DNA of 42,802 nucleotides from a virus, in the IMG/VR virus record IMGVR_UViG_3300025435_000004, positions 1-42,802 of that record. One strand, given 5' to 3'. The notes under the pieces are model-generated. The model was not told where the DNA came from. It saw only the letters and a list, made by a program, of their open reading frames with translations, and searched no databases. A program made the position numbers and the translations under genes. Numbering within the stretch: the stretch's first letter is position 1; the number at the start of each line of letters is the position of its first letter. This document shows positions 1-42,658 of this stretch, piece by piece.

Positions 1-99
1 AAAAATACACGCATGAAATAGGCGTGTCAATAGGCAACACGCAGGCAATATCTAGACTATCACTTTAGACATTCATAAGGTTATTGTCTAGCCATATGC
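1..99. repeat. Left copy of the 99-bp terminal direct repeat
   Basis: Bases 1-99 are identical to 42704-42802. The simplest reading is the overlap left when a de Bruijn assembler closes a circle with k = 99, so one copy should be removed. A physical direct terminal repeat is possible but less likely at exactly 99 bp. The repeat contains the reverse-strand promoter also listed at 42705-42733. Confidence 0.95.
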
Positions 100-502: not shown

Positions 503-518
503 TGTGACGTAACTCACA
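503..518. promoter_or_regulatory. Perfect Crp/GlxR-type operator TGTGACGTAACTCACA
   Basis: The 16 bases match TGTGA-N6-TCACA exactly. They also carry TA at the centre, as in the actinobacterial GlxR consensus TGTGA-N2-TA-N2-TCACA, which is known from Corynebacterium. The site lies between a TTTATACAAT box (494-503) and a second -10-like palindrome (552-568), upstream of the whole virion operon. If transcription starts about 7 bases after the second box, the operator centre is near -60, a class I activator position. If the first box is used, it overlaps the start and would repress. The host regulator is inferred. Confidence 0.6.
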
Positions 519-551
519 GACATGAAAGCGGGACAAACACCTAATTTCCCA

Positions 552-568
552 CCTTATACAATATAAGG
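552..568. promoter_or_regulatory. Palindrome CCTTATACAATATAAGG with -10-like core
   Basis: CCTTATA (552-558) and TATAAGG (562-568) are exact reverse complements around CAA. The element contains TATACAAT, and a similar TTTATACAAT occurs at 494-503 beside the Crp-type operator. It could be the -10 region of the virion-operon promoter or an operator. There is no strong -35 hexamer, which would suit an activator-dependent promoter. Confidence 0.4.
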
Positions 569-596
569 GGTTTTATAAATTACACCCCTATCCAAA

Positions 597-733
597 GGGC
601 GGTTCCACCGCCCCTTAGGTTATTAACCCAGTGGGGCATGGCGGAGCCTGCCCCTAACTCTTCCCATCGGCGGCGCAGAGCGCCACCCATAGGTTGTTTC
701 CATAGGGATTACCATAGGCCGCCTGACGGCGGC
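597..733. repeat. Four GC-rich stem-loops upstream of terL
   Basis: Four hairpins can be drawn: GGGCGG/CCGCCC (597-613), GGGGCA/TGCCCC with an inner GGC/GCC (633-654), GGCGC/GCGCC (672-684) and GCCGCC/GGCGGC (718-733). None has a clear U-tract. They contrast with the AT-rich DNA just before. They may form a structured leader, stabilise the transcript, or belong to the packaging site next to terL. Confidence 0.5.
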
Positions 734-749
734 GATTTACTACCATAGG
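687..749. repeat. Four CCATAGG direct repeats upstream of terL
   Basis: CCATAGG occurs at 687-693, 700-706, 712-718 and 743-749, ending 21 bases before the terL start. Spacings are 13, 12 and 31. Repeated heptamers beside a terminase gene suggest a packaging-recognition or regulatory site, possibly bound by the helix-turn-helix at the N-terminus of TerL. A lone copy also occurs at 29937-29943 in the intergenic region before the replication genes. Confidence 0.5.
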
Positions 750-770
750 AATTAAAGGCGGGTGTATTGT

Positions 771-2675
771 ATGGCTAAGCCATCGGCTAATAAATACAAG
801 ATCGCCCCAGATAGCCAAATCTCGGCCACTCAAGCCAAGCAGACTATCGCCGAGCTGGTAACTAAAGGTTACTCCATTGCCGATGCAGTTCGGGCAACTG
901 GCAAGTCAATCAAGTCCTATGAGTACTACCGCATGTCGGATGCTCAATTTAAAGAGGCTATCGACCTAGCCCGCGCCGTAGCACGTCGCGAAGGCGCGAT
1001 AAGCGAAGAAGATGCAAATATCAGCTTTGAGGACTTTAGAGCCAAGTACCTCAACTCCAAGACTTTCAATCACCAGCGCAACATCATCTCTATGCTGGAA
1101 GAGGGTAAGCCCGCGTGGCTTCACCCCAACATGAAATACGAAGAGGGTTTTCCTAACTACGTCCTCGTGAACATGCCACCTGAACATGCCAAGAGCATGA
1201 CGGTCAGCATTGACTATATCACCTATCGGATCTGTATCGATCCGAACATCCGTATCAAGATCGTCTCAAAGACTTTGACTATGGCAAAGGATTTTTTATA
1301 CGCGGTCAAGCAAAGGCTTACCCAGCCCGCTTATGCTGAACTTCAACGGCGCTATGCCCCTGCTGATGGTTACAAAGAAGCGGCGGATAAGTGGACCCAA
1401 GATGCGATCTACCTAGAGCGCGACTCAGGTGAAAAAGATCCTACCCTGCAGGCACTGGGTATTGGTGGTCAAATCTATGGTGCCCGTGCTGACTTAATTG
1501 TTTTGGATGACTGTGTTACCTTGGCTAACGCCAATGAATACGAGAAGCAGATCCGTTGGATCCAACAGGAAGTTCTTACTCGTGTTGGTCCCACAGGAAA
1601 GATCCTTGTTGTAGGTACTCGTGTAGATCCAGTGGATCTTTATCGCGAGATGCGTAACCCAGATCGTTATCCAGATGGCGCTTCGCCTTGGACATATCTG
1701 GCTATGCCAGCGGTATTAGAGTTTGCAGATGATCCAAAGGATTGGATTACCCTCTGGCCGCGTTCAGACAGGCCTTGGCTTGGAGATGATGCGAATATTG
1801 GTGAGGATGGTTTATATCCTCGTTGGGATGGAAGTAACCTACGCAAGCGTCGCGGTGTATTAGACCCAAAGACGTGGGCTATGGTTTACCAGCAACAGGA
1901 TGTAGATAGCGAAGCTGTCTTTGCACCTGAAGCAGTACGCGGATCAGTATCAGGTATGAGAGCCATTGGCCCTCTACTACCAGGCGCTCCTGGTCATCCA
2001 GATGCAATGAATGGTTCTTATACCATCTGCTCAATGGACCCAGCCATGTCAGGTGATACGTTCTCAATTGCCTATGCTGGCGATAAGAGTACACAGAAGC
2101 GTTACGTGCTAGAAGCAAGCCGCATGCCTGCTCCTACACCACAACGTATTCGTGAATTAATTTTTGAATGGACAGAAAAGTACAAGCCATCTGTCTGGGT
2201 TATTGAGAAGAACGCCTTTCAGTTGTTCCTTACTCAAGATGAAGAAATTAACCGCTTCCTAGCATCACGCGGTATTCGCCTTGTTCAGCATTACACAGGC
2301 GCAAACAAGATGGATGCAGAGTTTGGCGTAGCCTCTATGGCCCCACTCTTTGGAATGGTTGATAAACTTGGCAATCACGTCAAGGGAAGCAACCTTATAG
2401 ATTTGCCACGGTCCGACAATGAAGGCATAAAATCGTTAATCGAACAGCTCATAACATGGTCCGCTGGCACTAAAAATAAACAAGATGGATGTATGGCACT
2501 CTGGTTTGCAGAAACTCAGATGCGTGATTATATCAATCAGGCTGGAGCATATGGTGGCTCCTTTATTAAAAACCCATTTCAGACTCGTGATCAAAAAGCA
2601 CGTCGTCGGGTTATTAACATAGAAGACTATCAACGCGAAAAAGAGAAGTTAGCATCTAACGGGGGTTACTTATAA
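771..2675 (+). CDS. terL: Terminase large subunit with N-terminal helix-turn-helix
   Basis: This is the DNA-packaging ATPase and nuclease, 634 aa. The ATPase half shows a deviant Walker A, PPEHAKS, with Lys141, and a Walker B, LIVLDD, ending at Asp246-Asp247. The nuclease half begins at SMDPAMSGD with Asp423 and continues with VIEKN at Glu479. Residues about 15-70 look like a helix-turn-helix (repeated helices with SIADAVRATGKS), of the sort normally found in small terminase subunits. No separate small subunit was recognised nearby. I chose ATG 771 over GTG 762 because AAAGGCGGG ends right at 761, giving normal spacing only for 771. The stop overlaps the portal start (TAATG). Confidence 0.93.
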   Translation: MAKPSANKYKIAPDSQISATQAKQTIAELVTKGYSIADAVRATGKSIKSYEYYRMSDAQFKEAIDLARAVARREGAISEEDANISFEDFRAKYLNSKTFNHQRNIISMLEEGKPAWLHPNMKYEEGFPNYVLVNMPPEHAKSMTVSIDYITYRICIDPNIRIKIVSKTLTMAKDFLYAVKQRLTQPAYAELQRRYAPADGYKEAADKWTQDAIYLERDSGEKDPTLQALGIGGQIYGARADLIVLDDCVTLANANEYEKQIRWIQQEVLTRVGPTGKILVVGTRVDPVDLYREMRNPDRYPDGASPWTYLAMPAVLEFADDPKDWITLWPRSDRPWLGDDANIGEDGLYPRWDGSNLRKRRGVLDPKTWAMVYQQQDVDSEAVFAPEAVRGSVSGMRAIGPLLPGAPGHPDAMNGSYTICSMDPAMSGDTFSIAYAGDKSTQKRYVLEASRMPAPTPQRIRELIFEWTEKYKPSVWVIEKNAFQLFLTQDEEINRFLASRGIRLVQHYTGANKMDAEFGVASMAPLFGMVDKLGNHVKGSNLIDLPRSDNEGIKSLIEQLITWSAGTKNKQDGCMALWFAETQMRDYINQAGAYGGSFIKNPFQTRDQKARRRVINIEDYQREKEKLASNGGYL

Positions 2676-25259: not shown

Positions 25260-27548
25260 GTGGCTATAGGCAGCATTGATGGTTTTGGACATATTGCCGA
25301 ACGTCCTGTTGATCCAATTGGTCAACCAAGCGTAGCTGGTAATACCTTTACCAATACTTCTAATACCTATGATTGTGCTATCGCAGGTCTACCATTCTTT
25401 TTTGCTGTCAACGATAAGTATCCATCAAAGCGAGAAACTGCACAGTATCGTAAGCAACAGATCGATCAACAAAAAGAGCCTGGCGAACAAACATTAACAG
25501 GGTGGTGGCTACGCTCACAGTCTAGCTTCCACTATGGCGCTGGTATTCGTTACGAAGAGCCAGTTGAGGGCGAAACTGTTAACCTTCGCTTCAACAAATC
25601 TGCTGGTATTGATCCATTTAACATTGGTCGCGTAGATCTTCTACCAGATGTAGATCAACTCTACTCAACCAGCGGCACAAACATTATGTTTGAAGGCGGC
25701 AACGACGGCACAAATGATTTTGCCCTTGTAGCCGATGGGTCTGCTGTTAAAAAAGTTATTCAAGGATCGGCTCCAACTACTGTTACATGGGGTGGTTCTG
25801 GTGCAATTCTAGATATTACCCATGATGGAACGTATTACTATGTGGCTAATGCCACTGGTATTTATAAAGGTCCTTTGGATCTATCTGTCAGCGGCACTTC
25901 TGTCTTTACTCATCCAACTTCATACACTGGCACTGTTACTAAAGTCAAAATGAACTGGGTTAAACAACGTCTTATTGCTGCCGTTAATAACTACCTTTTT
26001 GAAATTACCCCTATTACCAGCTTTACTGTTACTCAAACCATTCTTGGTCAATATTCACACGGGTCATTAAACTACACAGGCAACGTGGCAGTCATTAACA
26101 CTCAAGGCAACCACAACTTTAGCATTGGCTCATTGGTAACTGTTTCATCTGTTGGCTCTCCTTACAACGGCACATGGCAGGTCATTGACGTACCAGCCCC
26201 ATACCAAGTGGCTCTTAATATTCAGAACGCTAACGTGGCTCCTAATACTTCAGCCAGCGGATCTATTGTTCTAGCGTCTAACAACACAACGCCTATCTAC
26301 AATCATCCAAACCCAGCATGGATATGGACTGGTATTTGTGAAGGCCCAAATGCTATCTATGTTTCAGGTTATGTTGGAGATGTATCTAGTGTGTATCGCC
26401 TTTCCCTCGATACAACAGGTGCAGTTCCACTTCTTAACAAGGCTTTGACCGCAGCCGATATGCCACGTGGCGAGATTATTCTCAGCCTTGGTTCATATGT
26501 AGGCAAGTACATGGTCTTTGGAACTAACCGTGGTGTGCGCGTAGGACAGATCGACACGTCAGGCTTTGTCTCTTCTGGCTATATTACCTATGGTCCAATG
26601 ACTGTTATTACTGCTGGTTACGATCCAGCCACAGGCACTTACCGTACTCCAGCTGGGCAAGATGGTTGGGTCAACTATGTAACATTTAATGACCGTTATG
26701 CTTATTGCACCGTCACAAACTATATTGATAATGGTGATGGCACATACTCATCTGGTCTAGTTAAACTAGATCTGGGTAAGGAAGTTGCTACCAATCAAGT
26801 AGCTTGGGCTACCAACCTTCGTGCCCCAGCAGGTATTACTGCTCAGACACAGGATGCTGCGGTTTATGGTAAATCTAATCGCCTTATGTTTTCTGTTCAA
26901 GGTTATGGTATTTACATTCAAACAGATCCAACTAACTCTAACTCAAGCGGCAAGTTGTGCTCATCTGGTTATATTCAAACAGGTCAAATTCGTTATCTTA
27001 CCCTTGAAGATAAACATTTTAAATATGTTAAGGCTCGCTTAACAAATCCAATTGTTGGTAATGTTACAGTTCAAACTGTTGATGCGTCTGGCAATATAGG
27101 CAATCTTATATCAATTGATCAAAACTTTGATCTTAATCAAGATATTTCTACTGGTATTTCAGCCCCTATTGAATCTCTTGGATTTAGATTTATAATCTAT
27201 CCAACTAGCAATCAACTATCAGCAACCACTTTCAATGGCTATCAACTTAAATCATTGCCAGCTGTTGCTCGTGAACGCGAGATTGGCATACCAGTTCTCA
27301 TGTTTGACTTTGATATGGATCGTTATAACATGGTGCTTGGTTATGAAGGCCGTGCTAAAGATACTCTTTTTGCTCTTGAAACTGTTGAATCAAACGGCGA
27401 TGTTGTAATTCTTCAAGACTTTACAACTGGCGAGCAGGTTCAAGGCGTAATTGAATCTCTCTCATTTGTTCGTATGTCCCCACCAGATAAGCGCTTCTCA
27501 GGTTTTGGCGGCGTTTGTATGGTTCAGTTCCGTACAGTCAACGCATAA
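25260..27548 (+). CDS. Large tail protein, propeller-like
   Basis: A 762-aa protein starting at GTG 25260 behind ATAAGGAGC. The N-terminus contains TGWWLRSQSSFHYGAGIRYEEP, a pattern I associate with actinophage minor tail proteins. The following 450 residues are repeated short strands separated by Gly and Asn turns, consistent with a beta-propeller. A YNGTW module near residues 265-340 also occurs in the collagen-like fibre. The C-terminal 150 residues form a separate beta domain. In a podovirus-like genome it could be the tail nozzle or tip, but this is inference. Confidence 0.6.
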   Translation: MAIGSIDGFGHIAERPVDPIGQPSVAGNTFTNTSNTYDCAIAGLPFFFAVNDKYPSKRETAQYRKQQIDQQKEPGEQTLTGWWLRSQSSFHYGAGIRYEEPVEGETVNLRFNKSAGIDPFNIGRVDLLPDVDQLYSTSGTNIMFEGGNDGTNDFALVADGSAVKKVIQGSAPTTVTWGGSGAILDITHDGTYYYVANATGIYKGPLDLSVSGTSVFTHPTSYTGTVTKVKMNWVKQRLIAAVNNYLFEITPITSFTVTQTILGQYSHGSLNYTGNVAVINTQGNHNFSIGSLVTVSSVGSPYNGTWQVIDVPAPYQVALNIQNANVAPNTSASGSIVLASNNTTPIYNHPNPAWIWTGICEGPNAIYVSGYVGDVSSVYRLSLDTTGAVPLLNKALTAADMPRGEIILSLGSYVGKYMVFGTNRGVRVGQIDTSGFVSSGYITYGPMTVITAGYDPATGTYRTPAGQDGWVNYVTFNDRYAYCTVTNYIDNGDGTYSSGLVKLDLGKEVATNQVAWATNLRAPAGITAQTQDAAVYGKSNRLMFSVQGYGIYIQTDPTNSNSSGKLCSSGYIQTGQIRYLTLEDKHFKYVKARLTNPIVGNVTVQTVDASGNIGNLISIDQNFDLNQDISTGISAPIESLGFRFIIYPTSNQLSATTFNGYQLKSLPAVAREREIGIPVLMFDFDMDRYNMVLGYEGRAKDTLFALETVESNGDVVILQDFTTGEQVQGVIESLSFVRMSPPDKRFSGFGGVCMVQFRTVNA

Positions 27549-33473: not shown

Positions 33474-33957
33474 CGTTGGTCACGAGCATGCAGTGGGGAT
33501 GCTTAGTATTCCTTACCTTACTCCTTCTGGCGTTGTTGGAATAAAGTTTCGCAGGCTAGATAACGGCACACCCAAGTACCTATGGCCCACAGGGCAGAAG
33601 ATTGGATTGTTTAATGTTCAAGATCTACATAAACACTCAGACACAATTGCGATCTGCGAAGGGGAGATTGACACGATTGTTCTATCTGGTTGTGTTGGTA
33701 TTCCTGCTGTTGGGGTTGCTGGCGTATCTCAATGGAAAGCCCACTTTCCAAAACTTTTTGAACCGTATACGCGGATCTTAATATTTGCAGACAATGATAT
33801 AAAAGATGATGGTCGTAACCCTGGGCAAGAGCTGGCTAAACGGATCAAGGAAGACTTGCCGTCAGCAGTTATTGTAGGATTACCAGGCAATCAGGACGTT
33901 AATGATCTATACTTAGCGCATGGCAAAGACTGGTTTGATGAGCGACTAGCGGCATGA
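33322..33957 (+). CDS. Primase TOPRIM domain protein
   Basis: A 211-aa protein with its own site, AAGGAG, 7 bases before ATG 33322. It contains an RGIS...YRLG module, LSIPYLTPSGVVGIKFR and PKYLWP, then the TOPRIM motifs CEGEID (112-117) and FADNDI (155-160). This is the catalytic core of a DnaG-like primase that makes RNA primers. The C-terminus ends with GNQDVNDLYLAHG, typical of phage primases. The template-reading zinc domain is in the preceding, overlapping ORF. Confidence 0.82.
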   Translation: MLNAEQKALLTEATERYADHISPLALSYLQARGISQQVASSYRLGSVVDPSVGHEHAVGMLSIPYLTPSGVVGIKFRRLDNGTPKYLWPTGQKIGLFNVQDLHKHSDTIAICEGEIDTIVLSGCVGIPAVGVAGVSQWKAHFPKLFEPYTRILIFADNDIKDDGRNPGQELAKRIKEDLPSAVIVGLPGNQDVNDLYLAHGKDWFDERLAA

Positions 33958-34523
33958 CAACTATCGCCTGCATTGAAGGACCCGAATGGGTAATGATTGG
34001 GGCAGACTCGCAATCTTCCAGTGAAGATGGGTTTTCGATCAACATTCCCAACGGAAAAATTTTTAGAAATAATAACGTGGTCTTTGCGATGGCAGGTTCA
34101 GTACGCGGCATTAATATTCTTGAGCATGACTTTATTGTGCCTAACGTCAACGGCAAGGACATAGACAAGTACGTTACTCGTCAACTTATTCCATCAATTC
34201 GCAAGGCTTTCTTGGATGCGGGCTATGAGTTTAGCAAGGCAGAAGCAGCAGTTGAGCATGACAACATTATTATCGTAGTAGTTAAGGGCAAGGTCTATTG
34301 CATCAATGAGGACTACTCATGGGAGCGCAGCGTAGATAACATGTACGTGGCTGGCAGTGGCGAGAAGTTTGCTCTTGGCGCTATGGCAGCTCTGGCTGGT
34401 GGCTTGGTGGATGACGCTGCAAAAGCCCGTAAAATAGTCACAAAAGCCCTGCAAATCGCTAGTAAATACGACGCTTACACAGGCGGCAAGATCACTGTAT
34501 CTCTTATTCAGGAAAGTAAATGA
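33954..34523 (+). CDS. Proteasome/HslV-like Ntn hydrolase
   Basis: A 189-aa protein. After removal of Met it starts with Thr (MTTIACIEG). In mature numbering the proteasome active-site residues fall at Thr1, Asp17 (GADSQ) and Lys34 (NGKIF). YVAGSGEKFALGAM near 131-144 matches the GSG segment, and KYDAYTGGKITV matches the final catalytic loop. Such proteasome-beta-like proteins are known in actinophages. It may degrade host proteins or act as a stand-alone N-terminal-nucleophile amidase. No regulatory ATPase was seen in the genome. It overlaps both neighbours by 4 bases. Confidence 0.82.
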   Translation: MTTIACIEGPEWVMIGADSQSSSEDGFSINIPNGKIFRNNNVVFAMAGSVRGINILEHDFIVPNVNGKDIDKYVTRQLIPSIRKAFLDAGYEFSKAEAAVEHDNIIIVVVKGKVYCINEDYSWERSVDNMYVAGSGEKFALGAMAALAGGLVDDAAKARKIVTKALQIASKYDAYTGGKITVSLIQESK

Positions 34524-35767: not shown

Positions 35768-36225
35768 AAGTAAAACTTAGTATTGCTGACGTAACTTATG
35801 CAACGATTGAAGCAGTAGAACGCTACAACTTTAATCGTGATATGGGTAACGACTGGTCTAAGATAAGTAAGACATGGCCAGAAGCTATTGCTCGTGAGAT
35901 TAATGGCGTGATTGCTGAGATTGCAGTTGGCCGCTGGAAAGATAAGTTTCCTACTACCCTCTTTGCTGATCGCAAGAGTGGAGACGTGGGTGAGTTTGAA
36001 GTACGCTCAACGGCATACTCCTATGGCAAGCTCTTGTTCCAACCAGATGACAATAAAAACCGCAGATATTTTTTTGTAACTGTAGATGGGCACTATAGAG
36101 CGCTTATCGTAGGCTGGCTCTGGGGCTGGGAAGGGATACAAGATCAGTTCTGGGATACAAATATGCCAGTACCATGCTATGCAGTGCCACAAAACCTTCT
36201 CCACGATCCAGAGGAATTAGATTGA
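35755..36225 (+). CDS. Possible nuclease-fold phage protein
   Basis: A 156-aa protein. REINGVIAEIAVGRW, then GDVGEFEVRSTAYSYGKLLF, then RYFFVTVDGHYRALIVGWLWG give Glu, Asp and Glu-x-Arg in an order that recalls a PD-(D/E)XK fold with Arg in place of Lys. This might be a structural or inactivated nuclease relative. It overlaps the metallophosphoesterase gene by 13 bases and the sigma-like gene by 4. The call is tentative. The gene itself is well supported. Confidence 0.5.
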   Translation: MALVEVKLSIADVTYATIEAVERYNFNRDMGNDWSKISKTWPEAIAREINGVIAEIAVGRWKDKFPTTLFADRKSGDVGEFEVRSTAYSYGKLLFQPDDNKNRRYFFVTVDGHYRALIVGWLWGWEGIQDQFWDTNMPVPCYAVPQNLLHDPEELD

Positions 36226-36854
36226 CTTGGTTAGATGAAGCGCAAGAGATTGCCCATACAGTATCCAGGCAAGTCCACCGCAAATACACAACTTACTTTG
36301 ATGCAAGCGATGTTAAGAATGAACTTATCGTCTGGGTCTTACGGCGCGAGACGAAGGTTAAAGAGTGGCTTGACCATGATAAAGATACTGAAGATTATCG
36401 CGTTGGTATTAGGATGCTTGCCAAAACTCTTCAACGCCATGCGGATAAGTATTGTCGCAGAGCTAAAGCGCAAGCGGTTGGGTATGAAGTAAGAGATGAA
36501 ATTTTTTATTCTGCTGAAGTATTAGAGCAGCTCCTACCTTTTGTTTGGAAAGATACTGTTCCTACAACCAACCCGACTGGCGAGAAGGTAAGTGGTGGTG
36601 GCAACCCTGCTGAGGGTGGTAACTACATTATCTCGCTCTTTGATGTGCGCAAGGCTAAAGATAAATTAGAGCCAGACGATCAACTCCTGCTCCATATGAA
36701 GTACGTAGAAGCTATGACTTACGACCAGATCGCTGAAAGTTTGGTAATATCCAAGTCATCTGCAGAGCGCAAGGTTAAGGCTGCCATACGTAGACTTACT
36801 AAAGAATTGGGCGGAGAAGATCCATGGCTGAGAAAGAAAAAGGTAGAAGACTAG
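36222..36854 (+). CDS. Sigma-70-like factor, region-4 helix-turn-helix
   Basis: A 210-aa protein that I start at TTG 36222, overlapping the previous stop (TTGA) with AGAGGAATT upstream. The C-terminus (about residues 147-200, DDQLLLHMKYVEAMTYDQIAESL then SSAERKVKAAIRRLTKEL) is a classical sigma region-4 helix-turn-helix. The N-terminal half is helical and could play a region-2-like part (EIAHTVSRQVHRKY, FDASDVKNEL). It may redirect host RNA polymerase to late phage promoters. The middle has no typical sigma sequence, so a sigma-like regulator is the safer name. Confidence 0.65.
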   Translation: MTWLDEAQEIAHTVSRQVHRKYTTYFDASDVKNELIVWVLRRETKVKEWLDHDKDTEDYRVGIRMLAKTLQRHADKYCRRAKAQAVGYEVRDEIFYSAEVLEQLLPFVWKDTVPTTNPTGEKVSGGGNPAEGGNYIISLFDVRKAKDKLEPDDQLLLHMKYVEAMTYDQIAESLVISKSSAERKVKAAIRRLTKELGGEDPWLRKKKVED

Positions 36855-37816: not shown

Positions 37817-37956
37817 TAGTAACCGCCTAGACATTCCTTTGAGTGCGTGTGTCGTGAGTAGAGCATTTGATACTCGCTCTTGCTGGGCGCGAATAACTCA
37901 GCGCCACATGCTCCACATGCTCCAAACCATTCTCCACCAAAAAAATCAAATTTCAT
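37816..37956 (-). CDS. Tiny zinc-finger protein (46 aa)
   Basis: A 46-aa protein. WFGACGACGAELF gives CxxC, followed by SRHTHSKECLGG with two His and a Cys, a plausible zinc-binding set. Similar very short proteins occur throughout actinophages. It overlaps the glycosyltransferase gene by 4 bases and the next gene by one. The function is unknown. Confidence 0.65.
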   Translation of the reverse strand: MKFDFFGGEWFGACGACGAELFAPSKSEYQMLYSRHTHSKECLGGY

Positions 37957-38798
37957 TTAAGTGTTCCCATCCAGTGCTTGATAGCTTCTAAGTTTTCATG
38001 CAGCGTTAGATAGCCATAGATCTTGCGGTTATCTAAGTACTGCAATATATCATTCTTGCGCCAGTTACGGCTAACTCTTACATACTCATAGTCCTGCGTA
38101 CCATCAAAGTAGTTGGTAAAAGGCAGGGCTTTGGGGTGAATAAGGTAGGTACAGTGGACCAAATCGATAGGGAATATGCCCCGTATTATCCCATTGAGTA
38201 GGGAAAAGTACTCATCTGAGTCACGATAATACCCCGTCTCTGTAACTGGGTGGTGATAATTGCTGTAGGCAACATGATTTTCTTCGCCTTCTGCTGCTGC
38301 GTAGCGCAGTAGTGGGGCGATAACAGGGCGTGAAGCAGATACAAGGGTGCGTAGAGTCTCTGGCAGTAGAAAGTTATCTACATCTGCCACAAAGTAGTGA
38401 TAACCCAACTCCTTAGCCTTCTCTATGCCATCTTGGCGTAGTGCGCCTAATACATCAAAGCGCATAGCGTTCCACTCATGTACACCAAAGTTCTGTACTG
38501 GCTCTGGCACGTCACTATCGTCTAGTTCTATGTCTAGCCAGTCATATTTCCATGGCTCGCCATTGATTGTATTTTCTTGCTCTTCATGGAACAGTTCGTT
38601 TTGAGCATAGACCCACTGTTGCAGGATCGTGGCTGTCTTATCGTTGTTGTTGTTGGTGCGGATATAGATATGCACCTTGTTGCGTGGATAGTCCAGCTTA
38701 TCTAAGTTCTGTTTTAGCCAGTAAGGCAGGATCTTTTCTTTATCTTTTGCCAGCACGTGAAATAGCACGTCTGGCAGTTCGTTATCTTCTAGTACCAA
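37953..38798 (-). CDS. Procollagen-galactosyltransferase-like glycosyltransferase
   Basis: A 281-aa enzyme starting at TTG 38798 behind ATAGGAGACATAA. The order of motifs recalls the first glycosyltransferase domain of eukaryotic COLGALT/GT25-like enzymes: HVLAKDKEKILPYWL (14-28), LDYPRNKVHIYIRTNNNNDK (35-54), YHYFVADVDNFLLPETL (133-149, DxD-type 139-141), RPVIAPLL, then RGIFPIDLVHCTYLI (206-220) and KIYGYLTL (259-266). Those enzymes add galactose to hydroxylysine of collagen. Here the natural partner would be the Gly-X-Thr fibre at 16307-19120, with Thr as acceptor, which is inference. Other acceptors such as host glycans are possible. Confidence 0.72.
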   Translation of the reverse strand: MVLEDNELPDVLFHVLAKDKEKILPYWLKQNLDKLDYPRNKVHIYIRTNNNNDKTATILQQWVYAQNELFHEEQENTINGEPWKYDWLDIELDDSDVPEPVQNFGVHEWNAMRFDVLGALRQDGIEKAKELGYHYFVADVDNFLLPETLRTLVSASRPVIAPLLRYAAAEGEENHVAYSNYHHPVTETGYYRDSDEYFSLLNGIIRGIFPIDLVHCTYLIHPKALPFTNYFDGTQDYEYVRVSRNWRKNDILQYLDNRKIYGYLTLHENLEAIKHWMGTLK

Positions 38799-39220
38799 TT
38801 ATGTCTCCTATCGTGAGCGAGGGCGTTGCAAGCATTATTGTGCCAGTGCAGCTTGATATAAAGCAAGCCCCAGCGGATCTGTGTCTGGTAGTTTGTCTTG
38901 TAATCCTTGCCAAATTGAGCCATCTTCACGGCTGGCAGGGCTTGTGGTATGCCATGCGCACCGCTTGAGTTATGGGCAGCATAGTTCCAATGGCTCTCAT
39001 GCTCCCAGAGCGCTTTCAAGCAGCCCCATTGGTGCAGGTTTGCACCTTGACGCATGTACAACACCTTAGCAAAGTGCTTAGGCGCTGACATGTACTCGGT
39101 TCTAGCTTGGGAAGGGCTATCAAAGAAAATTACTCCTGCACCCATTGTGGCAAGTATTGCGCAAAGTACCCGAATGGGATAGGAACGAATGATGGATCCG
39201 CGTCTGGGATAGTTGGACAT
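38789..39220 (-). CDS. Membrane-anchored transglycosylase-like protein
   Basis: A 143-aa protein. A basic N-terminus and a hydrophobic helix (about residues 17-33) form a signal anchor. The exported part has WGCLKALWEHESHWN with the candidate catalytic Glu75, then NSSGAHGIPQALPAVKMAQFG and QIRWGLLYI, the pattern of SLT/Rpf-like peptidoglycan lyases. It would cut glycan strands, perhaps for wall entry or lysis. It is transcribed opposite to the main lysis cassette, together with whiB. Its first 91 bases overlap the end of whiB in another frame, and AAAGG precedes its ATG. Confidence 0.72.
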   Translation of the reverse strand: MSNYPRRGSIIRSYPIRVLCAILATMGAGVIFFDSPSQARTEYMSAPKHFAKVLYMRQGANLHQWGCLKALWEHESHWNYAAHNSSGAHGIPQALPAVKMAQFGKDYKTNYQTQIRWGLLYIKLHWHNNACNALAHDRRHNWY

Positions 39221-39543
39221 GATAGACCTTTCTTCTGTTCTACGTGAAGGCGTAGTGCTCGCCAGAATGGTAGGCCTAAGCCTGACCTGTTTTTGGTAGC
39301 CTTAACCCTTTCACTTGGAAACGATCCGCCCCATATGCCATGTGCTTCATGGTTATTGACGGCGAATTGCAGACACTCCTTTTGTATAGGACACACAGCG
39401 CAAGCGCGTAGTGCCATGGCTGTTAATTCTACTAGATCATTGGCTGCCGTTCCACGAAAATGCTGTCCGCGTACTGGTTCTGGGAAGAACGCTTCTGGGT
39501 CAATCTCGGCGCAAGCTGGGTTTAGGTCAGCCTTAAAATACAT
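39130..39543 (-). CDS. WhiB-family iron-sulphur transcription regulator
   Basis: A 137-aa protein. Cys11, Cys48, Cys51 and Cys57 (CAVCPIQKEC) are the four ligands of the [4Fe-4S] cluster, and HGIWGG (68-73) is the WhiB turn, followed by a basic segment. WhiB-like proteins occur only in actinobacteria and their phages, and they act by binding sigma factor region 4. The phage copy probably alters host transcription. About 50 residues beyond the usual end are unusual and lie partly in the overlap with the next gene. AAGGAAG lies before the ATG. Confidence 0.92.
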   Translation of the reverse strand: MYFKADLNPACAEIDPEAFFPEPVRGQHFRGTAANDLVELTAMALRACAVCPIQKECLQFAVNNHEAHGIWGGSFPSERVKATKNRSGLGLPFWRALRLHVEQKKGLSCPTIPDADPSFVPIPFGYFAQYLPQWVQE

Positions 39544-39625
39544 CTTCTTCCTTACTTGCTAGCCATAGAGCCAATTTAGTGCCAGATATGGCAGCAAGTA
39601 CGATTAAAGCGGTAGTGATAAGCAT
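39533..39625 (-). CDS. Tiny membrane protein (30 aa)
   Basis: A 30-aa ORF starting on a TAATG overlap with the methyltransferase stop, with CAGGGGG upstream, and ending inside the start of whiB. Residues 2-24 are a hydrophobic helix (LITTALIVLAAISGT), then a charged tail. Tight coupling supports translation. The function is unknown. Confidence 0.55.
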   Translation of the reverse strand: MLITTALIVLAAISGTKLALWLASKEEDVF

Positions 39626-40182
39626 TATTTCCCCCTGTAAAGGCTTATGCGCTTGTTGCCATAGGCCATGACTAATTGTAGTTTGTAGTTAAAAGGTTCT
39701 AGGGCAAGGTTAATACCCCGCCACTCGCCAGCCTTTATCTCGGTATTAGCGTCAGCTATATCGTTGCAGATAAGGGCATACTTGGCGCTAGCCATGATCT
39801 TGTTCATAATCGTGTGGATGGCTGCGATAGGTAGGTGCTGAAGTACATCTTTGATGAGAATTAGATCCACTTGGGGAAAGTCTATTGTCTCTAAGTCACC
39901 CTGCATAAACTTTATGTGCTCTGATTCATATTGCTTAATATCCTCTATGATTACTGAGCTTACATCTATGCCTGTGTATTCTTTACCTTCTAGGTTTAAC
40001 TCTTTACCTAAGCGCCAATCGCCACAGCCCAAATCTAGTACTGTGTGAATGTCATCTTGGGCTAGTAGTTTGTTCGCTTCTGCGATCCATGGGGCAGCGT
40101 TGGCTGGGTCTGAGCCTGGGCCTGACTTGTGCCCCCATGTAGAGTTTGTATAGATAGCGTTAAACGCTTCTTCATTACTCAC
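39625..40182 (-). CDS. Class I SAM-dependent methyltransferase
   Basis: A 185-aa protein. Motif I VLDLGCGDW (48-56), the acidic end of strand two (YTGIDVSS, Asp73) and FMQGDLETIDF show the SAM-binding Rossmann fold. LILIKDVLQHL matches motif IV/post-I of small-molecule methyltransferases. It lacks the NPPY or PC motifs of DNA methylases, so the target is more likely a sugar, lipid or small molecule. Given two glycosyltransferases in the genome, methylation of a glycan is one possibility. It overlaps the upstream gene by ATGA. Confidence 0.85.
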   Translation of the reverse strand: MSNEEAFNAIYTNSTWGHKSGPGSDPANAAPWIAEANKLLAQDDIHTVLDLGCGDWRLGKELNLEGKEYTGIDVSSVIIEDIKQYESEHIKFMQGDLETIDFPQVDLILIKDVLQHLPIAAIHTIMNKIMASAKYALICNDIADANTEIKAGEWRGINLALEPFNYKLQLVMAYGNKRISLYRGK

Positions 40183-40472
40183 TTATTAAGTTCCTTTATG
40201 CGGTTGCGGATAACGTGTAGATCTTCACCATAGACACGTCCTAGTGCGTCGTTCATTAGTTCCTGTTCGCGAATAATCTGCATAATATCTTGGACGGCAT
40301 GGTCGTAGCCTTTGCTAAAGGCTAGTTCCTTTTCTACGTCGATCTGATCCTGCGTTGTCGGTTCAACCTTGATCACGCGCTCCCCTACTGCCTGCGTTGT
40401 CGATCCTGTAATTCCTTCTATGACCCTGTTCATCTGGTCGGCAATTCTGTTTGCTATTTCATCATTAGTCAT
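40179..40472 (-). CDS. Helical protein, first gene of a leftward unit
   Basis: A 97-aa charged, helical protein without cysteines or membrane helix. It is the first gene after the promoter at 40552-40580 and carries the AGATAGGAATA element just before its ATG. The family was not recognised. The N-terminal DEIANRIADQMNRVIEG and C-terminal EQELMNDALGRVYGED segments look like coiled coils. Confidence 0.6.
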   Translation of the reverse strand: MTNDEIANRIADQMNRVIEGITGSTTQAVGERVIKVEPTTQDQIDVEKELAFSKGYDHAVQDIMQIIREQELMNDALGRVYGEDLHVIRNRIKELNK

Positions 40473-40478
40473 GCTATG

Positions 40479-40489
40479 TATTCCTATCT
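40479..40489 (-). promoter_or_regulatory. Ribosome-binding element AGATAGGAATA (copy 1)
   Basis: Identical 11-base element, also at 41811-41821 and 42666-42676. Each lies just upstream of a leftward gene start and contains a Shine-Dalgarno-like AGGA. Sharing all 11 bases goes beyond what a ribosome-binding site alone needs. Confidence 0.6.
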
Positions 40490-40525
40490 GGTCGGTTGTC
40501 TACGTCGGCGAGCTAAACGCTCCCC

Positions 40526-40550
40526 TACCGCCTCGGTGGTCGGTAGTACC
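40526..40550. promoter_or_regulatory. Inverted repeat CTACCG / CGGTAG beside the promoter
   Basis: CTACCG and CGGTAG flank CCTCGGTGGT, just downstream of the -10 box of the 40552-40580 minus promoter, where the transcript would begin. Its position suits a repressor operator or a leader stem-loop. Confidence 0.4.
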
Positions 40551-40551
40551 T

Positions 40552-40580
40552 AGAATAAAGAGATGGCGCAAGAGTGTCAA
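40552..40580 (-). promoter_or_regulatory. Sigma-70-type promoter TTGACA-N17-TATTCT
   Basis: On the minus strand, TTGACA (40575-40580) is followed after exactly 17 bases by TATTCT (40552-40557). It would drive the gene starting at 40472 and those beyond, including methyltransferase, WhiB and the glycosyltransferase. Confidence 0.75.
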
Positions 40581-40609
40581 GCCCCCGCGCCTATCGTGTC
40601 CCGTGTCTG

Positions 40610-40738
40610 TTAGTGAGTATCCGTCTCCCCGTCTTTAATACACCCCGCGCATACATGCCATCCCCCGTCGATCATGACAAAATCTGACACACCCTCGCAA
40701 AATACACAGGGCTTTAATAAGTCAATTTCACTCTCCAT
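40610..40738 (-). CDS. Tiny double-CxxC protein (42 aa)
   Basis: A 42-aa protein with KPCVFCEG and, 16 residues later, HVCAGCIKDG, two CxxC pairs making a complete zinc-ribbon set. It starts inside the end of the upstream gene (11-base overlap). Very short, but the motif spacing and the coupled start argue for a real gene. The function is unknown. Confidence 0.65.
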   Translation of the reverse strand: MESEIDLLKPCVFCEGVSDFVMIDGGWHVCAGCIKDGETDTH

Positions 40739-40913
40739 CAATTAGCCCCGCTTGCTCTAATGCTTCTATAGCTGCAGCTCTAGGGGTAAGCGCTACCCCG
40801 TCGCCTATCTCTTCTCCATGTTCGTATATTGTGACCCGATAACCCACACCGCTAGGGTTAAATTTAAGATCATCTTCCAATTCTTCCATGTCTAGGGTGT
40901 AAATAGCTCTCAT
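40728..40913 (-). CDS. Small acidic protein of unknown function
   Basis: A 61-aa acidic protein. Its middle (YRVTIYEHGEEIGDG) looks like a beta hairpin, and its end (TPRAAAIEALEQAG) is a helix. It is joined to both neighbours by short overlaps. No cysteine or membrane helix. The acidic character recalls DNA-mimic or inhibitor proteins, but nothing specific supports this. Confidence 0.6.
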   Translation of the reverse strand: MRAIYTLDMEELEDDLKFNPSGVGYRVTIYEHGEEIGDGVALTPRAAAIEALEQAGLIDGE

Positions 40914-41356
40914 TCTTCTATATCCTCTCTTTTGTCTGGCGTAATGGTGAAGCTCGCACCCGTAGGCTCATCATGCGAATAGCGCGTAATGGTGAGAGAG
41001 TCACCCTCTAGCACGTAGCGCAGTGTCCACTCACCAGAGAATGTAAGGCTGTCCCATAATTCCTTGTGAGTAGCCTTGATTACCTTGTACCCGCTGCGAG
41101 CCTGCCATCCCATGCGCTTACCCTCTATGCGTAGATATTCTGGCTCATTGTGTGCAGCCATGAAAGCAGGCAGTAGATACTCTTCCAATTCTTCTAGCTT
41201 GTACTCATAGCATGAGCCATCACACCAATCTGTAAAGCGTGTATCTGTGCCACATTCTGGGCAGGCTATATCTTGCCCACCCATCCCGCATGAGTCACAC
41301 ACGCGACATTCACAATTACTGCTTATCTCTAGCTCTATCTTCTCTAGGGTACTCAT
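40910..41356 (-). CDS. Zinc-ribbon protein with C-terminal beta domain
   Basis: A 148-aa protein from ATG 41356, chosen because it forms an ATGA overlap with the upstream stop and has GAGGTGA nearby. CECRVCDSCGMGG, then IACPECGTD and DWCDGSCYEY, give eight cysteines in the first 55 residues, enough for two zinc sites. The rest is strand-rich, with WTLRYVLEGDSLTITRY. A nucleic-acid-binding or protein-interaction role is plausible. The family was not recognised. Confidence 0.65.
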   Translation of the reverse strand: MSTLEKIELEISSNCECRVCDSCGMGGQDIACPECGTDTRFTDWCDGSCYEYKLEELEEYLLPAFMAAHNEPEYLRIEGKRMGWQARSGYKVIKATHKELWDSLTFSGEWTLRYVLEGDSLTITRYSHDEPTGASFTITPDKREDIEE

Positions 41357-41811
41357 GCGCTCACCTCTTCTAATTCTTCTGCAGTTGCGTATGCATAAGC
41401 TAACACCCGATAAGCTAAGCCATGCATGGCGCAAAATAGATAGTGAGAGTTAAGGTCTGTTAGTGATGGGTTTACATCTCCATTGAACCATTCTGCCACT
41501 TCACTATCTAACTCTGGGTAAGCCCAGAGACTCAGAGCTTGTACCCGCTTATTTATATTTACGTGATAATCTTGCACCTCTCCATCTGCAAGATGGATAG
41601 CGTTAGCAGTAACTATATCTTCTGTATATTCTTCATCATCACTAAGCCAATCAACAGCAGTACGCGCCATATCTACAATTTCACCGACCCAATCTGAGCC
41701 AGCGATAAAGTCGGGAAGATCATCCCAGAGCGCACCCATTGAGCCATTAGTCATGCTCTCTTGTGTAATTGTGCCTAGTGCAGTTTTAATCTGCTTTCCT
41801 TGCATAGTCAT
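41353..41811 (-). CDS. Acidic protein of unknown function
   Basis: A 152-aa strongly acidic, helix-rich protein. There are no cysteine pairs and no catalytic signature (MARTAVDWLSDDEEYTE; VAEWFNGDVNPSLTDLN). It carries the AGATAGGAATA element directly before its ATG and lies behind a pair of hairpins (41832-41875). Acidic early proteins often inhibit host functions, for example anti-restriction, but this is only a possibility. Confidence 0.55.
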   Translation of the reverse strand: MTMQGKQIKTALGTITQESMTNGSMGALWDDLPDFIAGSDWVGEIVDMARTAVDWLSDDEEYTEDIVTANAIHLADGEVQDYHVNINKRVQALSLWAYPELDSEVAEWFNGDVNPSLTDLNSHYLFCAMHGLAYRVLAYAYATAEELEEVSA

Positions 41812-41821
41812 ATTCCTATCT
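41811..41821 (-). promoter_or_regulatory. Ribosome-binding element AGATAGGAATA (copy 2)
   Basis: Exact match to the elements at 40479-40489 and 42666-42676, directly before the start of the 41353-41811 gene. Confidence 0.6.
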
Positions 41822-41831
41822 ATGATTAAAC

Positions 41832-41875
41832 CCCGCAGGCTGCGGGTGACAAGGCTAGGAAAGTGATCCCTAGCC
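41832..41875 (-). terminator. Two adjacent hairpins in the leftward leader
   Basis: On the minus strand, GGCTAGG/CCTAGCC (41853-41875) is followed by CCCGCA/TGCGGG with a three-base loop (41832-41846) and then GTTTAA. The second resembles a weak terminator. The pair could attenuate read-through from the promoter at 42705-42733 into the 41811 gene. Confidence 0.5.
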
Positions 41876-41882
41876 CCATCAT

Positions 41883-41993
41883 CTACCGCCTGCTCTTGAT
41901 CTTATCGCTGAGCTGCTCTAGTTTCCATCCAATATAGAAGAGAGCGCAGCCTATGAGCATGAAACTGCCGATTAAGTGTCGCAGCGGGTGCAT
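41883..41993 (-). CDS. Tiny membrane protein (36 aa)
   Basis: A 36-aa ORF with TGAGGAATA before the ATG. Residues 7-24 (LIGSFMLIGCALFYIGW) are a transmembrane helix, followed by a basic, charged tail. It is a stand-alone small membrane peptide in the leftward unit, perhaps host-targeting. The family is unknown. Confidence 0.55.
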   Translation of the reverse strand: MHPLRHLIGSFMLIGCALFYIGWKLEQLSDKIKSRR

Positions 41994-42063
41994 TATTCCT
42001 CACTTTCTAGGGATAAGTGTAGGCATATTCTAATGCCCTGTATCTGGCAAGATGAGCAGACTA

Positions 42064-42240
42064 TCATTCGCTTAGATCACATTCGCATAAGTGACCACAC
42101 GTGAAGCAGACGTACAGCTGCCCCATATGCGTATGATAGCCATATTTTCTAGGCTTGCCAATCTCTTTCGCGTACCATCTGCCAGACTCATCCTGCTGCG
42201 TGGCATTGTAAACAGATCTTGCGCTCTCTAGGGTTAGCAT
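42064..42240 (-). CDS. Tiny Cys-rich protein (58 aa)
   Basis: A 58-aa protein whose ATG overlaps the end of the upstream gene. An initial helix-like region with RWYAKEIGKPRK is followed by YVCFTCGHLCECD, four cysteines and a histidine within 12 residues, a likely zinc site. The unit then has a 70-base gap before the next gene, in which nothing else is visible. Confidence 0.6.
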   Translation of the reverse strand: MLTLESARSVYNATQQDESGRWYAKEIGKPRKYGYHTHMGQLYVCFTCGHLCECDLSE

Positions 42241-42485
42241 GCGATCACGACCATATGTCCGCTCTCACGCATTGCGCGGGCTGTTGCGTTAGTGTCTAGG
42301 GCTGCAGTAATCGTGTCCAGCTGCGCCTGCAGCTGAGCGGGTGAGCCATGAGCCTGCAATTCTATGCCTGCTTTTGCGTACTGCTTGATTATGCGCTGAG
42401 TTGCTGCTTCTGTTAGGGGACATTCTACCCATACTTTCCCGTATTTATCAGAGAGGATGGTGTGGCTCTTCATCTGCTTAGCCAT
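42234..42485 (-). CDS. Small protein of unknown function
   Basis: An 83-aa protein from ATG 42485, chosen for the TAATG overlap with the upstream stop and the strong GGAGGTGG site. A longer reading start at 42530 would run through the upstream gene. The N-terminus (SHTILSDKYGKVWVECPLTE) suggests strands. The rest is Ala- and Gln-rich helix (LQAQLDTITAALDTNATAR). No family was recognised. Confidence 0.6.
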   Translation of the reverse strand: MAKQMKSHTILSDKYGKVWVECPLTEAATQRIIKQYAKAGIELQAHGSPAQLQAQLDTITAALDTNATARAMRESGHMVVIAC

Positions 42486-42658
42486 TATGCCACCTCCATT
42501 CCACACTGCAGGCGGATACATGTAGGACATTCTGAGCCATTAAACTCTATATCTTCAATTCTTTCACGCGCTTCTGTTATCTCGCCAGAAGTAACCAGAT
42601 CATCTAGTTCACGTAGGCATGTCTCGCATATATCAATCGGATATTTCATTGTATTCAT
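42485..42658 (-). CDS. Tiny double-CxxC protein, first gene of the leftward unit
   Basis: A 57-aa protein with ICETCLREL near the N-terminus and ECPTCIRLQCG near the C-terminus, separated by an acidic helical linker. Two CxxC pairs indicate zinc binding. It is the first gene after the promoter at 42705-42733 and carries the AGATAGGAATA element 8 bases before its ATG, so it should be expressed early and strongly. Confidence 0.65.
   Translation of the reverse strand: MNTMKYPIDICETCLRELDDLVTSGEITEARERIEDIEFNGSECPTCIRLQCGMEVA

Follow-up and report, generated by a model that had tools for sequence, protein, structure and literature searches.

A conserved CRP-type operator upstream of terL in a clade of actinophages, a probable landing site for the host regulator

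The window, i.e., the whole stretch of 42,802 nucleotides analyzed here (IMG/VR record IMGVR_UViG_3300025435_000004), is a complete-looking circular phage assembly with a 99-bp end repeat and a G+C content of 44.7%. The rightward genes follow the order terL (ATG at position 771), portal, tail, lysis and replication, and the last one encodes a sigma factor (36174-36854); replication and sigma genes lie at the far end of the terL operon. The leftward genes occupy positions 37953-42530, starting at 42530, and include a gene for a WhiB-like protein. Among the other products, a 762-aa protein (25260-27548) contains a YVGKYMVF stretch, has no Pfam match and is, among named phages, confined to the clade of the window; it is a possible candidate for a replication initiator. 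Moreover, the phage encodes a proteasome/HslV-like peptidase (33954-34523). A scan with Rfam over the whole window gave no match. The features of the control region and the genes referred to below are the following:

2-30, minus strand: TTGACA-17-TATTTT, likely a sigma-70 promoter for the leftward direction, some 470 bp away from the operator and lacking a CRP site next to it
478-490, no strand assigned: AGTATAAAATACT palindrome upstream of the operator, shared by relatives of one sub-type, whereas the other sub-type has a GACCTGCGG-type sequence in its place
503-518, plus strand: CRP-type operator TGTGACGTAACTCACA, exact motif, centre at 510.5
528-537, plus strand: GCGGGACAAA (consensus GCGGGATAAA), conserved block occupying the -35 position, with a constant offset of 25-34, counted from the first base of the operator, in 40 representatives
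545-553, plus strand: TTTCCCACC (TTTATCCCGCC in relatives), which forms the right arm of an imperfect inverted repeat and is less conserved in alignments than the left one
552-570, plus strand: CCTTATACAATATAAGGGG (consensus CCTTAnTATATATAGGGG), the -10/start region, with transcription predicted to begin at about 564-572
571-770, plus strand: untranslated leader in front of terL, rich in hairpins (seen by eye) and with no conserved ORF
771-2675, plus strand: terL, large terminase subunit (phrog_38, E 3e-65), ATG at 771, program-made ORF from GTG 762
36174-36854, plus strand: phage sigma-70/ECF-like factor (Pfam Sigma70_r4; TIGR02937 just under the cut-off), ortholog in 12 of 12 genomes
39130-39543, minus strand: WhiB-like protein, present in 12 of 12 phages checked

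The operator TGTGACGTAACTCACA is located 268 bp upstream of the terL start codon inside the divergent intergenic control region and constitutes a TGTGA-N6-TCACA palindrome with exactly six bases in between the arms, as is characteristic for operators of the CRP family. It is the single occurrence of this pattern in 42.8 kb, and by chance about 0.05 exact sites are expected for the whole window and 0.001 for the intergenic region of approximately 0.93 kb. The initial annotation had described the site as an exact Crp/GlxR-type operator, and this is borne out by the exact motif, the location in the control region and the preservation in close and distant relatives. Also the -10-like boxes proposed to flank the operator are present as AT-rich sequences, TATAAAATACT on the left and TTATACAATATAA on the right. 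The likeness to GlxR operators of Corynebacterium glutamicum has to be narrowed: the window site matches TGTGANNTANNTCACA at all defined positions, but the central TA lacks conservation across the phages (just 13 of the 40 representatives have T at offset 7), which leaves the GlxR-specific portion of the match without weight. To the left of the operator, at positions 415-435 of the window, a conserved TATTTTTTCTAAATATAGG-type element occurs at variable distance.

The initial annotation had made its call depend on conservation in close relatives, and this conservation is wide and extends to distant lineages. In 65 IMG/VR loci, which were chosen by TerL similarity only and which carry at least 450 bp of upstream DNA, the operator is kept in 64, 230-360 bp before terL, with perfect arms in 53 of these sites and one mismatch in the rest. 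The layout is retained in relatives with a TerL identity of about 55%. In 40 representatives (<85% identity) the arms are nearly invariant and the N6 core is variable, with preferences for C at position 6 and for A at positions 9 and 11; as this set was chosen by a motif fixing most arm positions, the unselected count of 64/65 is the fair measure of conservation. Within the kilobase upstream of terL, exact sites were found in 25 of 30 dereplicated loci of the window lineage, in 23/37 of the lineage of the phages LanE43-AprE7 and AprF5 (E7/F5 lineage) and in 36/54 of the Streptomyces-phage lineage, compared to means of 0.00, 0.18 and 0.09, respectively, for palindromes with shuffled arms; spacers other than six gave 0-2 exact matches across the lineages. 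These lineages, which share the motif at a TerL identity of about 45%, come from lake and soil hosts. Moreover, 11 of 12 near-complete genomes carry the exact motif in one or two copies each, and the reversed control pattern has zero occurrences in these 12 genomes. The probability of a chance match is negligible given the expectation for the intergenic region and the near-universal conservation, and this explanation was ruled out by the 64/65 conservation and the shuffled-arm controls in three lineages.

Downstream of the operator, three blocks follow at exact distances in the window lineage, namely AAnGCGGGATAAA at offset 22-34, CCTTA at offset 49-53 and TATATATAGGGG up to offset 66. Of 29 unselected dereplicated loci, 26 carry GGGA at offset 27, 28 carry CTTA at offset 50 and 22 carry TARGGG at offset 61, in agreement with this spacing. 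The -35 position is occupied by GCGGGATAAA instead of TTGACA, in the window as the left arm of the imperfect inverted repeat, and an AT-rich -10 region leads into GGGG. The claim that a good -35 hexamer is lacking thus holds for the rightward side, which has no TTGACA-like -35 for the site; a regular rightward sigma-70 promoter was rejected because there is no consensus -35 and the scan stayed at chance level. Further copies of a GCGGGATAAA-CCTTA promoter were also searched for in the window; with the pattern applied, the true one scores no better than other matches with three mismatches, so no second copy is claimed. With a predicted start at offset 64-69 the operator centre is positioned at about -57 to -61.5, whereby the imperfect -10 of the window (TACAAT or AATATA) makes the predicted start uncertain by several bases. 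This fixed distance to the rightward block fits a CRP-type activator, as judged from the sequence.

A related arrangement was observed for Streptomyces phages of the Beephvirinae (Dennebes, FlowerPower, Manuel, Immanuel3, WRightOn, JXY1, RosePharie and JPandJE), which have upstream of terL a CRP-type site and then, at an offset close to that in the window, a block of the TATATATA-nTGGGG type. Dennebes also encodes WhiB and the sigma ortholog. In contrast to the window, these phages have two CRP-type sites about 46-57 bp apart and TGTCC in the -35 region in place of GCGGGATAAA. The nearer of the two sites has TATATATAnTGGGG at nearly the offset found in the window, and a -10 of TATACT or TATAAT places the predicted site centre at about -61.5.

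For the E7/F5 lineage the orientation differs. The phages LanE43-AprE7 and AprF5 (OX376640, OX376641) are cultured phages of Ca. Planktophila (PMC10202952). Their gene set is similar to that of the window (whiB, sigma-70, glycosyltransferase) and their TerL is 46% identical. The corresponding divergent region holds CRP-type sites with an exact motif, but on leftward TTGACA promoters; these sites find no mention in the available part of PMC10202952. Across the lineage the operator lies upstream of leftward TTGACA promoters, with TTGAC at 10-11 bp from the site edge in 14 cases, at 21 bp in five and at 0 bp in one (chance 0.07 per site), and the site position tracks the -35 box about 640-700 bp from terL, not terL itself. 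Relative to the predicted starts the operator centres are at -43.5, -53.5 and -64.5, i.e., one helical turn apart. Steps of one helical turn classically point to an activator that contacts RNA polymerase from a single side of the helix, and this placement fits a CRP-type activator on sequence grounds. Phage E7 (L295) has a second exact CRP-type site at 1435-1450 in the leftward region, about 11 bp from a minus-strand TTTACA box.

Taken on predicted starts, the operator centres of all three lineages are near -61.5 or one helical turn off, as in class I CRP promoters. Such promoters, including targets of Mycobacterium tuberculosis Rv3676, share with the phage sequences TGTGA-N6-TCACA upstream of a weak promoter, a centre at about -55 to -65 and helical-turn spacing. 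Chromatin immunoprecipitation of the M. tuberculosis CRP gave an E. coli-like palindrome (TGTGA-N6-TCACA-like) with sites clustered in between -60 and -40 (PMC4117774). Different from these systems, the sites described here are borne by phages on the virion or the opposite operon, and they go together with -35 blocks that are specific to each lineage and with a sigma factor encoded by the phage.

The host of the phage is very likely an actinobacterium, given that WhiB is encoded in 12/12 phages (the window and eleven relatives), and in Corynebacterium only among 14 control genomes, and given that cultured actinophages are related to it: among named phages, TerL is matched best by Streptomyces phages as well as LanE43-AprE7 and AprF5. 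The sole genomic terL match (L177, 77%) comes from a betaproteobacterial MAG, in which its contig of 5.7 kb is probably mis-binned phage DNA, and a host assignment from this contig was judged unreliable against WhiB. A sigma factor related to that of the window is encoded in all 12 phages. CRP DNA-binding and cNMP domains were found in none of the 12 phage genomes, and a phage-encoded CRP as binder was accordingly rejected; the control genome of Corynebacterium glutamicum contains CRP-family domains. As no CRP is encoded by these phages and actinobacterial CRP binds such a motif, the host protein is the simplest candidate and the likely binder of the operator. Moreover, a motif shared across distant lineages from lake and soil hosts is what is expected for a regulator common to these hosts. 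It is quite unlikely that another protein of phage or host recognizes the palindrome and that the resemblance to CRP sites is convergent. This might be considered as many phage genes are unannotated and the phages are devoid of their own CRP; however, lineages with about 45% identical TerL have in common a motif, a spacing of six bases and a placement by helical turns that all correspond to CRP. A role of the palindrome as a structural element, i.e., a packaging site, a replication origin or an RNA hairpin, is very improbable: although an inverted repeat near terL and the other inverted repeats in the region would be compatible with it, the spacer is fixed at six, the arms are nearly invariant without covariation, and the E7-lineage position follows a -35 box 640-700 bp away from terL.

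A further alternative keeps host CRP as the binder and assigns to it, in the window lineage, mainly repression or the control of both divergent operons. It is suggested by a minus-strand TATACT box (478-483), which is 30 bp from the site centre in a class II-like position with a putative leftward start about 40 bp away, and by the sites of the E7 lineage, which clearly serve leftward promoters. On the other hand, the leftward side is much less conserved in the window lineage and the TATACT box is absent in several sub-types, whereas the register on the right side is fixed and the good leftward promoter is 470 bp off, which makes this alternative unlikely. The preferred reading is that the phage promoter has a built-in operator which is probably the target of a CRP-family regulator of the host, of the actinobacterial Crp/GlxR/Rv3676 type. 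Host CRP would bind at about -57 to -61 from the predicted start, contact RNA polymerase in class I geometry and thereby activate a promoter with a non-consensus -35 block, which reads into the terL/virion operon and which the sigma factor of the phage may recognize. For the lineage of the Planktophila phages, an equivalent CRP device would act on leftward TTGACA promoters.

The activator-dependent promoter postulated initially is consistent with the activator-like distance, the non-consensus -35 and the direction towards the virion operon; activation rather than repression is deduced from this geometry. By contrast, the proposal that late phage transcription senses host cAMP or nutrient state is not supported as stated. 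The M. tuberculosis CRP (Rv3676) is active in its apo form and binds DNA without cAMP, which adds a gain of only about two-fold (PMC4005916), and the E7/F5 sites serve leftward promoters, so that the operator is no mark of late genes as such. Late timing of the terL operon is presumed from its gene content, which also comprises replication and sigma genes.

Host CRP as such has been well studied in cells. The Nanopelagicales are some of the most abundant lake bacteria. An open-access literature search returned no report of CRP operators kept across an actinophage clade or of CRP sites in phage promoters. The finding applies beyond a single phage to a whole actinophage clade, and the data suggest that this family bears a landing site for host CRP once or twice per genome at the main promoter region, by which key genes might be switched on via the host regulator. 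If true, infection of Nanopelagicales and Streptomyces would be wired to the central regulator of the host. Since the conserved non-consensus -35 block differs between lineages, it is suggested that the sigma factor of the phage and the CRP of the host may act together. Tentatively, and with more doubt than confidence, the main phage promoter could be an AND gate of phage sigma, reading the lineage-specific -35 block, and host CRP, which would couple the lytic programme family-wide to the host's global metabolic regulator, with an operator that changed sides, virion operon or opposite operon, from lineage to lineage.

Concerning the leader of the terL operon, a stem beginning at GGGG is strong in about half of the relatives and absent in others. 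A universal 5' hairpin starting at GGGG was therefore dismissed, and the hairpin is not taken as proof of the transcription start. In the window (564-590) and in about half of the relatives the predicted transcript would begin with a hairpin of 7-9 bp, the arms of which covary (GGGGTTTG/CAAACCCC, GGGGATAC/GTATCCCC and GGGACTTC/GAAGTCCC). Three loci (L068, L038, L055) and their relatives have a conserved leader element of about 52 nt, GTTCGGCTC...GAGCCTCA...GAGACGAAC, about 30 nt past the GGGG block. Its ends can pair (GTTCG/CGAAC and GGCTC/GAGCC), GGCA/TGCC may form a pseudoknot, and the element might represent a structured RNA in the 5' leader of the virion operon.
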